Under the pieces are notes generated by a model. It was given only the letters and a program-made list of their open reading frames with translations, was not told where the DNA came from and ran no database searches. A program made the position numbers and the translations under genes. DNA of 49,818 bases from Candidatus Effluviviaceae Genus V sp. (GTDB lineage Bacteria; Joyebacterota; Joyebacteria; Joyebacterales; Joyebacteraceae), in the NCBI GenBank assembly GCA_014728125.1, contig WJMD01000108.1, positions 1 through 49,818 of the forward strand, read 5' to 3'. The number at the start of each line of letters is the position of its first letter. Position 1 is the stretch's first letter. Below, piece after piece: positions 2,126-7,352 of this stretch.

Positions 2126-3378
2126 AGCGGCACGTCATGCCCTCGGGTCTCATTGTCCTGACCGAGCTGATACCCGAGTCGCCGGTCGCCTCGGTCGTCC
2201 TCTCCGTTCTCGCGGGGACCAGGCGGGAACCCGCCGGCCGGGACGGGCTTGCGACCCTCGCGGCGGACGCTCTGCTCGAGGGCACGCGTGAACGCCCGGG
2301 ACCTGAGCTCGCGTGGGCCATCGATTCCCTGGGCGGCTCGGTCGACGTTCTGACCGGCTACGAGGCATGTCGGATCGTCGCGACGGGCCTGGGCGACACC
2401 GTTCACGAACTCGCCGGTCTCGTGGCCGAGATGGCCTTTCGTCCCACGCTCGAGCCCGCTGCCGTCGAGCGTTCGAAGCGCAGGCTCCTGCGGGAGATCG
2501 AGGAGGAGGACGACGACAGGTACGTCGTCGCCCAGCGGGCTCTGTTCCGACTGGTGTTCGGTGACCATCCCCGCGGCCGCGCGGGCATCGGCACGGCCGA
2601 CGGCGTCGGCGGCGCGACCGTCGAAGATGTGAGGCGCTTCCACGCTCGGGGCTACCGGCTCGACAGAGCGCTTCTCGCCGTCGCGGGCCGGTTCGACCGT
2701 GACGCCGTGTTCGCCGCTGCAGGGGACCTGGAGCGGCGGACCGCGCCCTCGGAGGACCCGCCGGTGCCGGCTCCCCCGCCGGTGCCGCCCGAGAGCAGGC
2801 TGATCCGTCGCGAGAGCGAGCAGGTGCATCTGGCCGTTGGCGCGCGCGGCATACGGCGGACCGATCCGCTGTATCTTCCCGCGTGCGTGCTCGATGTGAT
2901 CTTCGGTGACAGCGCCGGCTTCGCCTCCCGTCTGGCCGCGCGGCTCCGCGAGGGCGACGGTCTTGCCTACATGGTCGAGGGAGACCTCGTGGGCTCGGCC
3001 GGCGTCGACCCGGGGCTCGTCTCGGTCTACACGGCCACCGCCCCCGACCGGGTCCGAGCCGCTCTCGAGGCCGTCGGCGGCGAGCTTCGTCGAGCGGTCG
3101 GCGTGCCGCCGTCCGATGAGGAGCTCGACGCGGCGCGGGCCTTTCTCAAGGGGCGGAGGATCCTGGAGCGCGAGACGACCGAGGCCAGAGCCGCATCCCT
3201 CATCCGCATCGAGCGCTATCGTCTCGGCTTCGACTACGACGAACGATATCCCGGGCTTCTCGACGACGTCACGGGAGACAGTGTTCTTGAGGCCGCACAC
3301 AGGCTGCTCGACCCGTCCGGATGCTCCGTCGTCGTCGTCGGCCCGCTCGATGAGCCCCTGCCACTCCTCGCCCGCTGA
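2101..3378 (+). CDS. M16 family peptidase-like protein, non-catalytic partner
   Basis: A second M16 protein of 425 residues. The place where HxxEH should occur reads GLATLAADALLEGT, so the zinc ligands are absent and it cannot hydrolyse peptides by the family mechanism. The C-terminal half keeps the typical LREGDGLAYMVEGD segment used for substrate binding. In mitochondrial processing peptidase and in bacterial M16 pairs, one catalytic and one glycine-rich non-catalytic subunit assemble together; gene overlap and pairing here suggest the same. ATG 2101 lies inside the end of the upstream gene, consistent with coupled translation. Its last 110 bases are antisense to the 3' end of comEC. Confidence 0.9.
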   Translation: MAPPPRSVERHVMPSGLIVLTELIPESPVASVVLSVLAGTRREPAGRDGLATLAADALLEGTRERPGPELAWAIDSLGGSVDVLTGYEACRIVATGLGDTVHELAGLVAEMAFRPTLEPAAVERSKRRLLREIEEEDDDRYVVAQRALFRLVFGDHPRGRAGIGTADGVGGATVEDVRRFHARGYRLDRALLAVAGRFDRDAVFAAAGDLERRTAPSEDPPVPAPPPVPPESRLIRRESEQVHLAVGARGIRRTDPLYLPACVLDVIFGDSAGFASRLAARLREGDGLAYMVEGDLVGSAGVDPGLVSVYTATAPDRVRAALEAVGGELRRAVGVPPSDEELDAARAFLKGRRILERETTEARAASLIRIERYRLGFDYDERYPGLLDDVTGDSVLEAAHRLLDPSGCSVVVVGPLDEPLPLLAR

Positions 3379-5794
3379 CACCCTGACCGGCCGTTCCTCT
3401 CGAGTCCGCACGGACCCGCTCTATCCGGAGGTCGCTGCCGACCGTGCGGACCGTCATCGCGCCTTTGGCGATGTCGAGTAGGACGGCTCCATCGACGTCC
3501 GTCCGGAGGACGACCGACCCGGCACGTCGCAGGCGCTCGATGACACCCGGGTCGGGATGGCCGTGCCGGTTCCCCCGGCCGACAGATATGACCGAGACGC
3601 TCGGGCCGACGCACGCGAGGAAGCTCGATCGCGAGGAGGACGATGAGCCGTGGTGCGCCACCTTCAGGGCGCCGATGCCCGACGGCAGTCCCCGGTCGGT
3701 CAGGCGCCGTTCGGCCGTCTGCTCGATATCCCCGGCAAGAAGCACGTCGGTCACACCGTCCCGCAGGAGTGCGACGACCGAGGCGTCGTTCTCCGACGCG
3801 CCGCGCGCCGCGGCGGTGTCGGGCCAGAGCGCGACCAGGAACGGTCCCCCGGGTGCTGCCACGATCGTCTCGCCCCGCGCGATCTCGTGAACCGGGATCC
3901 CCAGGCTTCCCGCCACCGTGAGCGTCCGCTCGAGCTCCGCCGACCCGGAGCGTCCAGGCGGGACGATCAGACGACCGACCTCCACGGAGCGCATGACGTG
4001 GCCGGCGCCGCCGTAGTGGTCGGCGTGTGCATGCGTCACGACGATGGCGTCAAGTCTGGAGACGCCGCGTCGGGTCAGGTGCGGCACGATGACGGCCCGT
4101 CCGGCCCCGCGTCCGGGTCCAGGGGGACCCGCATCGACGAGGACGCGAAGCCCGCCCCTGAGTTCGAGCAGGGCGGCGTCCCCCTGTCCAACGTCGTAGA
4201 ACGTGACACGGCTCGACGTCCTGCCAGGTTCCGCGAGAGTGCAGAGCAGGCTCACGAGCACCGCCACGGCGGCCGCGGCGGACGCACGGGCAAAGCGCCG
4301 CCGCGCTCCGAACGCCGCGGCGACTGCAAGGAGCGCCGCCGGGAACGCGGCGTTCGTGCCGGGACGCAGGACCGCCCACGATAGCGCCGCCGCCCGCTCC
4401 GCGACCCAGGACAGTGCGGCCGTCGACGCCCACGCCGCACCCGAGAGGACGTGCGCCGCGCAAGGGACGAAGACGTCCGCGGCGACCGTCATCAGGCCGC
4501 ATGCGAGCGACGCGCCCGCCAGCGGCACGGCCAGGAGATTCGTGATCGGGGACACGACCGAGATCTCGCCGAAACTCGCCAGCAGCACCGGGGCCACGCC
4601 GAGCTGCGCGGCGACCGACAGCGCCAGCCCGTCGGCGACGCGGGCGGCGATCCCCGTGTTCCTGAGGAGCGTGCGGGCGCGTCTGCGGAAAGTCCGGAAG
4701 AGAACGATGATCGACGTCGCCGCGCCGAAGGACAACCGGAAGCCGAGGTCGTGGACGTCGCCCGGTCGTGCGATCAGGATGGCGAGGGCCGCGAGCGCGA
4801 TCGTGTTGGCCCCGCTGCTTCTGCGCTGTGCGAGCGCGGCCGCGACGAGCGCGGCCGCCCCGACCGACGCCCTGACGGCCGACGGCCTCGCGCCGACAAC
4901 GCCCACGAAAAGCGGGAGAACGCACACGGCCGCCAGCGAGGCGAGCCGGCGCGGCGTCCTCAGAGCGCGGAGGACCGTCCGGATCATCAGAGCGATCATG
5001 CCGACGTGGAGGCCGGAGACGGCCAGCACGTGCACCGTTCCCGAACGACGAAAGGCCTCGACGCGTTCCTCGGCCATGCGGTCCGATGCGCCCAGCATCA
5101 GCCCCCGGAGGACCGCCGATGTCCGCTCATCGAACCGCCGGGCCAGCGCCCGCTCGAGCCGGTCGCGGATCCGATCTGCGACGGTTCCGGGTTCGTCGAG
5201 ACGCTCGACCGACCTGGCCGTCATCGTCAGATGGATGCCGCGGGAACGGAGATAGGCTGCGAAGTCGAACGCCCCGGGGTTCGTCCTGCCCCTGGGACGA
5301 TGCGGCGAGCCGCGGAGCCGGACTCGCGTTCCCCTGGGCGGCGGAGCGCCGCTGAGCGACGTGACCCACACGTGTCCGCCTACGGCGGAAGTTGAGGGAG
5401 CGCGACCCAGCGTGTCGACCGAGACGACGGTCCGAAAGCCTTCCCCGCCTCTGGACCGCGCTTCCACGACACGACCCGAGACCACGAGGGTTGGCGAGCC
5501 CGCATGGAGCGATACGTCGTCGGGAGCGACCCGGTCCAGTCGGACCGACGCGTTGAGCGCCCCCGCGCCGGCCAGCGCGACAAGCGCCGCGGCGTCCAGA
5601 AGGAGCTGTCCCGACCGGAGGCGCCCCCAGGCTGTTCTGCGACCGGCAACGACGTACATGAGAGCCGCAAGGATGCACAGCCCGGCTGTCAACGCCGTTG
5701 GCACCGGGGGCAGGCCGTGCGAGGCGGCGGCCGTGCCGGCGGCAAGCGCCAGGGCGGCCGGTACGGCCGGCATACGGCCTCGATGCTCGATCAT
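3269..5794 (-). CDS. comEC: ComEC/Rec2 family DNA-uptake channel protein
   Basis: Polytopic inner-membrane protein of natural transformation that passes single-stranded DNA into the cytoplasm. About 840 residues: N-terminal membrane helices, a soluble OB-like region with the GRTNPGAFDFAAYL motif, the Competence domain (VHVLAVSGLHVGMIALM and following helices) and a C-terminal metallo-beta-lactamase domain with VTHAHADHYGG and VAHHGSSSSS. ATG 5794 is chosen because the frame further upstream runs into the repeats behind the neighbouring phosphatase gene; ATG 5773, with GAGG 4 bases upstream, is an equally possible start. The last 40 or so residues are Arg/Gly-rich, look unlike the family and lie antisense to the M16 gene. 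comF at 24.7 kb is another competence-family gene here. Confidence 0.9.
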   Translation of the reverse strand: MIEHRGRMPAVPAALALAAGTAAASHGLPPVPTALTAGLCILAALMYVVAGRRTAWGRLRSGQLLLDAAALVALAGAGALNASVRLDRVAPDDVSLHAGSPTLVVSGRVVEARSRGGEGFRTVVSVDTLGRAPSTSAVGGHVWVTSLSGAPPPRGTRVRLRGSPHRPRGRTNPGAFDFAAYLRSRGIHLTMTARSVERLDEPGTVADRIRDRLERALARRFDERTSAVLRGLMLGASDRMAEERVEAFRRSGTVHVLAVSGLHVGMIALMIRTVLRALRTPRRLASLAAVCVLPLFVGVVGARPSAVRASVGAAALVAAALAQRRSSGANTIALAALAILIARPGDVHDLGFRLSFGAATSIIVLFRTFRRRARTLLRNTGIAARVADGLALSVAAQLGVAPVLLASFGEISVVSPITNLLAVPLAGASLACGLMTVAADVFVPCAAHVLSGAAWASTAALSWVAERAAALSWAVLRPGTNAAFPAALLAVAAAFGARRRFARASAAAAVAVLVSLLCTLAEPGRTSSRVTFYDVGQGDAALLELRGGLRVLVDAGPPGPGRGAGRAVIVPHLTRRGVSRLDAIVVTHAHADHYGGAGHVMRSVEVGRLIVPPGRSGSAELERTLTVAGSLGIPVHEIARGETIVAAPGGPFLVALWPDTAAARGASENDASVVALLRDGVTDVLLAGDIEQTAERRLTDRGLPSGIGALKVAHHGSSSSSRSSFLACVGPSVSVISVGRGNRHGHPDPGVIERLRRAGSVVLRTDVDGAVLLDIAKGAMTVRTVGSDLRIERVRADSRGTAGQGVSGRGVAGAHRAGRRRRRSIRTGRAACVRPQEHCLP

Positions 5795-5892
5795 CTCGAA
5801 GGGACCGAACGGGGCGGCGGGGCGTCGAAGAGCGCAACAGTAAGCAACGGCCGTGCCCGGCGGCGCGGTCGACGGGAACGTCAGCGTGTCCG

Positions 5893-5976
5893 GTGGCTCA
5901 GCCGGCGAGGCGCGGGACAACGTCGTGGCTCAGCCGGCGAGGCGGGGAACCACGTCGTGGCTCAGCCGGCGAGGCG
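5893..5976. repeat. 32-bp tandem repeat, three copies, spanning a stop codon
   Basis: The 20-base core GTGGCTCAGCCGGCGAGGCG occurs without mismatch at 5893-5912, 5925-5944 and 5957-5976, a strict 32-base period; the two 12-base linkers are also alike (CGGGACAACGTC and GGGAACCACGTC). The copy at 5957-5976 contains the last codons and the TGA (5964-5962) of the SpoIIE-type phosphatase gene, so the other two copies are duplicated 3' ends of that gene in its downstream region. Confidence 0.9.
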
Positions 5977-7239
5977 CCGGGCCACGACGACCGTCATGTC
6001 GTCGACCGGCGTCCCGGCGCCCGCGAAGGCGTCGGCCTCGGTGATCAGGAGCGACGCCATGACGCGGGCGGGCGCGCCGCGGGCGCGCCGCGCGGTTTCG
6101 ATCACGCGACCGTCACCGAAGAGCTCGTCGCCCTGCTGAGACTCGCTCAGACCGTCCGTGAAGATGACCAGATATTCCTCGGGACGAAACCTGACGCGAT
6201 CGTGCTTGTACACGGCGCCGGCGAACATGCCGAGCACGGTCCCTCCCGTGGTCAGCCGCTCAGTCGTCCCGTCGTCACGGAGCAGGATGGGCGGGTTGTG
6301 CCCCGCGTTGACGTAGGTGAGTTCACCCGAAGGGTCGAGAACCCCGTAGAAGAGCGTTGCGAACGTGTCGGGCGGCGTGCTCCTCGCGAGCGCGTTGTTC
6401 GCCCGCTGCATGATCGTGGAGATCGAGTAGAGGTTCTCGACGTGGGATCTCAGGGTCCCCTGGAGCGCCGCCGCGAGAAGTGCGGCGGGGATGCCCTTTC
6501 CTGACACATCGGCGACGGCGATGCCGAGATGTCCGTTCGGAAGTTCGATGTAGTCGAAGTAGTCGCCGCTGATCGTCTGGCTGGGGAGGTTCATGCCCGC
6601 GATCTCGTATCCCTCGACCAGGGGGTCGCTCTCCGGCAGAAGCCGTTCCTGGATCGTGCGTCCGAGGTTGATCTGGTGTTCGAGTTCGCGGCGCTTGAGC
6701 GCTTCATCGCGGCTGGCGATGGCCGCCTCGTGGTTCCTGGCGTTGATGATGGCGACGCTCGCCACGGCGGCGAGGGCGGACAGGAACTCACTCGACTCCG
6801 GTGAGAAGGCGTCGAGCTCTGGACTCTGCACGTCGACCACCCCGATCACGCGTCCGCGGAACACCATCGGCACGACGAGCTCGGAGCGGGCACCCCGAAG
6901 GCCGTCGAGGTAGCGGTCCTCCACGGAGACGTCCGGCACGACGATCGGCTGCCCCGTCTGTGCCACGCGTCCCGTCAGCCCCTTTCCCACCTTGAGCTCG
7001 ACGCTCTGGACGATCGAGTCTGGATAGCCGTACCGCGCAGCGACATCGAGCGTCTCGCCGTCACGCCCTATGAGCAGGATCGTACAGTACTCGAATCCGA
7101 GGATGCGGTGCGTGAGGTACAGCAGGCGTTCGAGGATCGTCTCGACGTTGAGCGTCGACGTGATCGTCTTGACCGCCTCGAGAAGCGTTCGGTACCGGTC
7201 GATGCTCGAGCTGTCCGGCCGTTCCGTTTGATTGCTCAT
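5962..7239 (-). CDS. GAF domain-SpoIIE family protein phosphatase (RsbU-like)
   Basis: Two-domain signalling enzyme of 425 residues. An N-terminal GAF domain (about residues 20-180) senses an unknown ligand; a helical linker leads into a PP2C-type SpoIIE phosphatase domain (about 220-425). The metal-binding motifs SGDYFD, VADVSGKG, FTDGLSES and PVDDMTVVV are intact. Family members dephosphorylate anti-sigma-factor antagonists in partner-switching pathways; no such partner gene is present here, so the target must lie elsewhere. ATG 7239 is preferred over the longer frame because the GAF domain follows closely and upstream codons encode an unrelated segment; the SD is weak. The 3' end is tandemly repeated downstream. 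Confidence 0.9.
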   Translation of the reverse strand: MSNQTERPDSSSIDRYRTLLEAVKTITSTLNVETILERLLYLTHRILGFEYCTILLIGRDGETLDVAARYGYPDSIVQSVELKVGKGLTGRVAQTGQPIVVPDVSVEDRYLDGLRGARSELVVPMVFRGRVIGVVDVQSPELDAFSPESSEFLSALAAVASVAIINARNHEAAIASRDEALKRRELEHQINLGRTIQERLLPESDPLVEGYEIAGMNLPSQTISGDYFDYIELPNGHLGIAVADVSGKGIPAALLAAALQGTLRSHVENLYSISTIMQRANNALARSTPPDTFATLFYGVLDPSGELTYVNAGHNPPILLRDDGTTERLTTGGTVLGMFAGAVYKHDRVRFRPEEYLVIFTDGLSESQQGDELFGDGRVIETARRARGAPARVMASLLITEADAFAGAGTPVDDMTVVVARRLAG

Positions 7240-7243
7240 TTTC

Positions 7244-7272
7244 TTGACAGCGTGTTCAGTTTGTGATACGAT
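7244..7272 (+). promoter_or_regulatory. Strong sigma-70 type promoter for the 66-aa membrane protein gene
   Basis: TTGACA (7244-7249), a 17-bp spacer and TACGAT (7267-7272) give one of the best promoter matches in the window. It begins only four bases from the start codon of the divergent phosphatase gene and would start transcription near 7279, about 75 bases before the GTG at 7353. Confidence 0.7.
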
Positions 7273-7352
7273 GAAGTGTGTGAGAGAGCTCGAGCATGAT
7301 GTACCGGCCCATCCGTAGGGGCTTCTGAGCGCGATCGGCAAGGAGGAGGCCA

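Follow-up and report, generated by a model that had tools for sequence, protein, structure and literature searches.

The window (the whole stretch of DNA analysed, 49,818 nucleotides) carries a gene for a protein with GAF and SpoIIE phosphatase domains followed by comEC, both on the minus strand, and the end of the phosphatase gene lies in a short tandem array. The features, from high to low coordinates, are:

5962–7341, minus strand: GAF and SpoIIE phosphatase gene (domains from Pfam); longest ORF, from TTG, with the stop codon at 5962–5964
5957–5988, minus strand: repeat copy 3, gene-proximal, with the final codons of the SpoIIE gene and its stop
5953–5989, minus strand: inverted repeat CGTCGTGGC...GCCACGACG around copy 3; predicted RNA hairpin of −26.9 kcal/mol, z −3.1
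5925–5956, minus strand: repeat copy 2, 3′ of the stop; same 20-base core, with 5 of the remaining 12 bases different from copy 3
5920–5958, minus strand: weaker predicted hairpin around copy 2, −19.5 kcal/mol, z −3.5
5893–5924, minus strand: repeat copy 1, 3′ of the stop; core identical, 3 of the remaining 12 bases different from copy 2
5843–5858, minus strand: sigma-54-like −24/−12 element GGGCACG-GCCG-TTGCT before comEC, recurring in genomes of the family
3269–5794, minus strand: comEC, with DUF4131, Competence and metallo-β-lactamase domains; ATG at 5794 picked by eye by comparison with relatives

A repeat search delimited three head-to-tail units of 32 bp between 5893 and 5988, spaced by 32 and 32 bases and 100, 91 and 88% identical to the first unit. 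TRF returned the array at 5893–5986 (period 32, 2.9 copies), with a score of 153 that was the highest of the 21 rows for the window. The three error-free 20-base cores at 32-base spacing of the original prediction were confirmed, and its start of the array at 5893 was right as well, but the array does not end at 5976; it reaches 5988, 12 bases further. The core, GTGGCTCAGCCGGCGAGGCG, is present exactly three times in the array, and when up to three mismatches were allowed, there were three matches in the window compared with a mean of 0.08 in 100 shuffles; the array exceeds chance. Viewed on the gene strand, every unit ends in the identical 20 bases CGCCTCGCCGGCTGAGCCAC, which are preceded by the 12 bases GTCGTGGCCCGG, GACGTGGTTCCC and GACGTTGTCCCG in units 5957–5988, 5925–5956 and 5893–5924, respectively. 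The six variable columns all lie outside the core, that is, in these remaining 12 bases; at unit positions 2, 8 and 11, copies 1 and 2 have changes in common that set them apart from copy 3. What had been described as an inverted CCGGC/GCCGG in each copy is really just the 6-bp palindrome GCCGGC. No fourth copy was found on either flank of the array (5–12 of 32 matches). With a head-to-tail unit of tens of bases, the array has the make-up of a minisatellite, and the repeat by itself is ordinary, its anatomy being of a known kind.

The innermost copy does carry the last codons of the gene, as originally claimed, the stop at 5962–5964 (minus strand) lying inside the gene-proximal copy. The further expectation, that each copy encodes the same gene end again, also held: SHDVVPRLAG-stop is spelled by copy 2 as well as by copy 1. 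The period of 32 is not divisible by 3, which puts every copy in a different frame, the stops falling in frames 0, 2 and 1, that is, in all three. Wherever copies 1 and 2 differ, the change is at the third position of a codon in the TGA-ending frame; for all three differences to be so placed, chance is ∼1/27, a value that was noted post hoc and is not leaned upon.

The core is unique to this one locus in the genome of 2,519,156 bases (2.52 Mb). A genome-wide search with up to three mismatches gave three other matches, compared with two for the reversed-pattern control. A dispersed repeat family, or a MIRU-like scatter, was therefore ruled out, the core being confined to a single locus and the three-mismatch matches being at the level of the control. 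At up to one mismatch, the core was absent from 19 of 19 other family genomes, which are all the others that the phylum search returned, every one of them of the same family, and viral contigs contained no exact match. Close SpoIIE orthologs are present in seven relatives (62–69% identity over the match), and comEC follows directly in six of the seven, the contig of the remaining one (G017) ending 126 bases past the stop. None of these seven orthologs has the repeat: upstream of the promoter element, their best direct repeats over 20 bases matched at 11–14 positions, a value reached by 28–60 of 60 shuffles. Conservation of the repeat in relatives was thus ruled out for the seven orthologs and the 19 other family genomes searched, so that the conservation across species that had been named as support for a functional element was not seen in these genomes.

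Because the core is absent elsewhere and the orthologs lack the repeat, the array is regarded as a private, VNTR-like duplication rather than a conserved element. Of the origins first suggested, slippage at a VNTR-like locus fits best, the unit being private among the genomes searched, which included no other member of the species or genus; the array is known from one genome. Probably, it is a neutral tandem duplication with little or no function. We infer that strand slippage or unequal exchange produced a downstream duplicate of a 32-bp segment, comprising the final SpoIIE codons and the stop, and that a second duplication of the unit followed the first. The original copy would have retained the stop of the gene, leaving the SpoIIE end unaffected, the two extra copies (64 bp) would be non-coding spacer, most likely neutral, and the SpoIIE end would have been shifted from ∼39 to 103 bases away from the sigma-54-like element of comEC. 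The stop-to-promoter gap minus the 64 extra bases is 39, and the gaps of the seven relatives are 3–37 bases; because the gap without the two units is near those of the relatives, two successive gene-end duplications explain the anatomy. The changes common to copies 1 and 2 but not copy 3 are the pattern that stepwise duplication would leave.

Several observations speak against neutrality. The six variable columns fall within 11 of the 32 positions (chance ∼0.009; Monte Carlo 0.0097), and this clustering is a hint that the core is constrained in copies 1 and 2, although it is weak evidence because the boundary was chosen after the data had been seen. The period is near three helical turns and the position would suit an enhancer. 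Beside the third-codon-position differences, the array also stands alone among the five TRF arrays sampled in the genome (see below), both in its period and in its overlap with a stop.

The closest parallels found are intergenic arrays of mycobacteria, and in its anatomy the present array appears to be of that kind. Like the rnc-fpg1 VNTR of Mycobacterium tuberculosis (ETR-F / VNTR3239), as far as described in the available part of PMC2734929, it is a clade-private set of intergenic tandem repeats just upstream of the second gene, where relatives have a short gap only. For rnc-fpg1, the same text reports that species outside the M. tuberculosis complex have the short gap and that longer arrays go along with higher mRNA levels of the second gene. 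That locus differs in its units (55 and 79 bp, starting 40 bp past the stop) and in that variation across isolates was demonstrated, whereas the present array is known from one genome; moreover, no sigma-54 promoter is mentioned in the accessible text of PMC2734929. The MIRU array between senX3 and regX3 (PMC4213456, in part) is likewise a small intergenic tandem array, with three copies in H37Rv, in an intergenic region reported to drive the second gene. In contrast to the single-locus unit described here, its 77- and 53-bp units belong to a family scattered over the genome, with 41 places in H37Rv according to the portion of PMC2734929 at hand.

More useful than the repeat is the recurring sigma-54-like element before comEC. 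It was missed in the original prediction, which considered a variable distance between SpoIIE and comEC, and it may weigh more than the length of that gap. A −24/−12 match is found downstream of the SpoIIE stop in eight of eight genomes, at a distance of 103 bases in the window and 3–37 bases in the others, with scores reached by 0–17 of 500 shuffles per region. In another genus, where comEC was surveyed irrespective of SpoIIE, GGAACG-N4-NTGCT precedes comEC in five of five further genomes; these scores were reached in 5–36 of 500 shuffles, and in G019, the opposite strand scores equally. Thus, of the 20 genomes in the family, all 13 that had usable sequence carry the element; being related, they are not independent cases. 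For the survey upstream of comEC, 16 loci were read. Seven genomes (G007, G013, G017, G016, G003, G001 and G005) were skipped because the alignment started too far inside comEC or there was too little upstream sequence; G017, G003, G001 and G005 were covered by the survey downstream of SpoIIE, and G007, G013 and G016 by neither. Genomes G006, G009, G011 and G015, with weak partial ComEC matches, were left out.

As a background, 172 upstream and 190 downstream regions were scored for a sample of the genome's own ORFs. The lowest score of the 13 was reached by 12 and 6 of them, respectively, that of the window by none of the 172 and one of the 190, and this one may be the element at 5843–5858 itself, which is in the sample. 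Genome-wide, the sigma-54 pattern with up to one mismatch has 31 sites, compared with 29 for the reversed-pattern control, so that many of these sites may not be promoters. Because of this near-control count, support for the element comes from its recurrence before comEC and not from a single match. With GG at −24, GC at −12, fixed spacing and recurrence before orthologs, 5843–5858 is a putative sigma-54-dependent promoter, and RpoN is encoded in the genome (by a profile search, in which the profile also matches in 4 of 14 control genomes). The presence of the element before comEC across an uncultured family, probably close to the records named Ca. Eisenbacteria, suggests enhancer-dependent control of DNA uptake or of another ComEC function. 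A PMC search of titles and abstract openings, which is no proof of absence, returned nothing on comEC being controlled by sigma-54 in Eisenbacteria, and PMC3162934 uses neither “natural competence” nor “com genes”. The title of that paper has a “bacterial exterior” theme, and this agrees with the type of ORF seen by eye after sigma-54-like sites at L142, L143, L150 and L159, where the protein starts resemble those of secreted proteins, lipoproteins or pilins. In genus g5, four loci (L172, L174, L178 and L184) share a similar block around GTCACA..CTACCA.GC, which lies some tens of bases ahead of the comEC element and is a possible activator site. In one relative (L004), a long near-perfect inverted repeat, GCTCCGCGGGAGG...CCTCCCCGCGGAGC, was seen by eye between the element and the comEC start.

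Given such a promoter, the cores could be tandem upstream activating sites (UAS) for an enhancer-binding protein looping to it, duplication having raised the strength of the enhancer while keeping it on one helical face; we consider this unlikely. It would agree with the recurrence of the element (eight of eight loci downstream of SpoIIE and five of five further ones upstream of comEC), with the presence of RpoN, and with a core that stayed identical while the remaining 12 bases diverged. Counted from the inferred start, the core midpoints would be at about −70, −102 and −134, spaced by ∼3 helical turns. The sigma-54 activator domain family has 13 matches in the genome, eight of them at E ≤ 7e-26, but it also matches in 14 of 14 control genomes, and the weaker matches therefore say little. 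Against this reading, the seven relatives have no similar core or repeat, and the genome-wide pattern count (31 versus 29) hardly exceeds the control. Among 29 of the 30 other sigma-54-like sites (of the 31 in total, one, without a locus, was left out), the best match to the core had 6 mismatches in 20. Repeated cores matching at more than 16 of 20 positions were found at none of the 29. In favour of the reading, two of them had a 16/20 direct repeat upstream, which 0 of 60 shuffles reached. These two repeats, at L150 and L153, have spacings of 67 and 62 and are unrelated to the core. A motif conserved before orthologous promoters or common to a regulon, which would mark a UAS, was not found in the seven relatives or at the 29 sites, and the palindrome CCACGTCGTGG, considered as a common operator, recurred in one other upstream region at one mismatch and in none exactly.

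Compared with the UASs of sigma-54 promoters in the available part of PMC4641369, the arrangement is alike in having one or several sites upstream of −24/−12, the cores extending from about −61 to about −144 if the start is as inferred. That text places UASs at least 100 bp upstream, and promoters with the closest site no more than 100 nt away make up the largest fraction in its data. The present array differs in that no known activator motif was recognized in it, in that relatives do not share it and in that it overlaps a coding end. Less likely still is the more specific notion of a sigma-54 enhancer array for comEC built by repeated duplication of the SpoIIE stop end, with phased sites tuning competence by copy number; strain-to-strain variation of the array, should it exist, would make this a case of gene-end duplications tuning such a promoter.

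A transcript-end structure had also been proposed. Tandem hairpins over the SpoIIE stop might protect the 3′ end, block readthrough into comEC or slow down the polymerase, which is quite improbable. Copies 3 and 2 do fold well on their own (−26.9 kcal/mol, z −3.1, and −19.5 kcal/mol, z −3.5, respectively), the left arm of the stronger hairpin being coding sequence, namely, the last valine codons of the phosphatase. However, copy 1 folded alone is no better than shuffles (z +0.7), and the entire array on the minus (gene) strand is not clearly exceptional (z −0.9 for 113 nt and −1.8 for 121 nt), while the plus strand, which is not that of the gene, reaches −2.0. An intrinsic terminator, that is, a G+C-rich stem with a T run, was not found at the array, neither terminator-like nor sigma-70-like sites were found in 5500–6500, and no Rfam family matched at E ≤ 1 in 5500–6400. 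For each of the seven relatives, the top hairpin from a scan of sequence no more than 60 bases from the stop was taken; these had z values of −2.1 to −2.5 in three and −0.3 to −1.5 in four; inconsistent as these are, and at differing places, a conserved hairpin at the SpoIIE end was rejected.

It is very unlikely that the array is a translation backstop, in which RLAG-stop in all three frames would end shifted ribosomes with nearly the same tail before the comEC promoter region. The stops in frames 0, 2 and 1, and the SHDVVPRLAG-stop common to copies 1 and 2, which differ at third codon positions alone, would suit this purpose, but the former is the automatic outcome of two duplications with a non-multiple-of-3 period around a stop, and the seven relatives do without the repeat. 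Equally improbable is an artefact of assembly: the genome looks like a MAG (190 contigs), as are the records of its nearest relatives, and a single assembly of the species was found, but a 96-bp array would probably fit within one short read, and there are differences among the copies, which a looped assembly would not create. A neutral duplication remains the preferred explanation.

How common such arrays are was assessed with TRF (period of at least 15, score of at least 80), ORFs being taken mechanically. In 281,783 sampled bases of the genome, there are five arrays, including the present one, so that arrays of moderate strength are not uncommon, in line with the neutral reading. Of the five, the present array is the only one whose period is not divisible by 3 and the only one lying over a long ORF's stop codon. 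In other bacteria (70 loci, 551,475 bases), there are 10, two of which overlap the stop of a long ORF. Another tandem array, at L134 (G000:C60; 9908–10107), has a 60-bp period and 3.4 copies, and its consensus contains TGTTTCACGTGAAACA, which we take to resemble a parS partition site.
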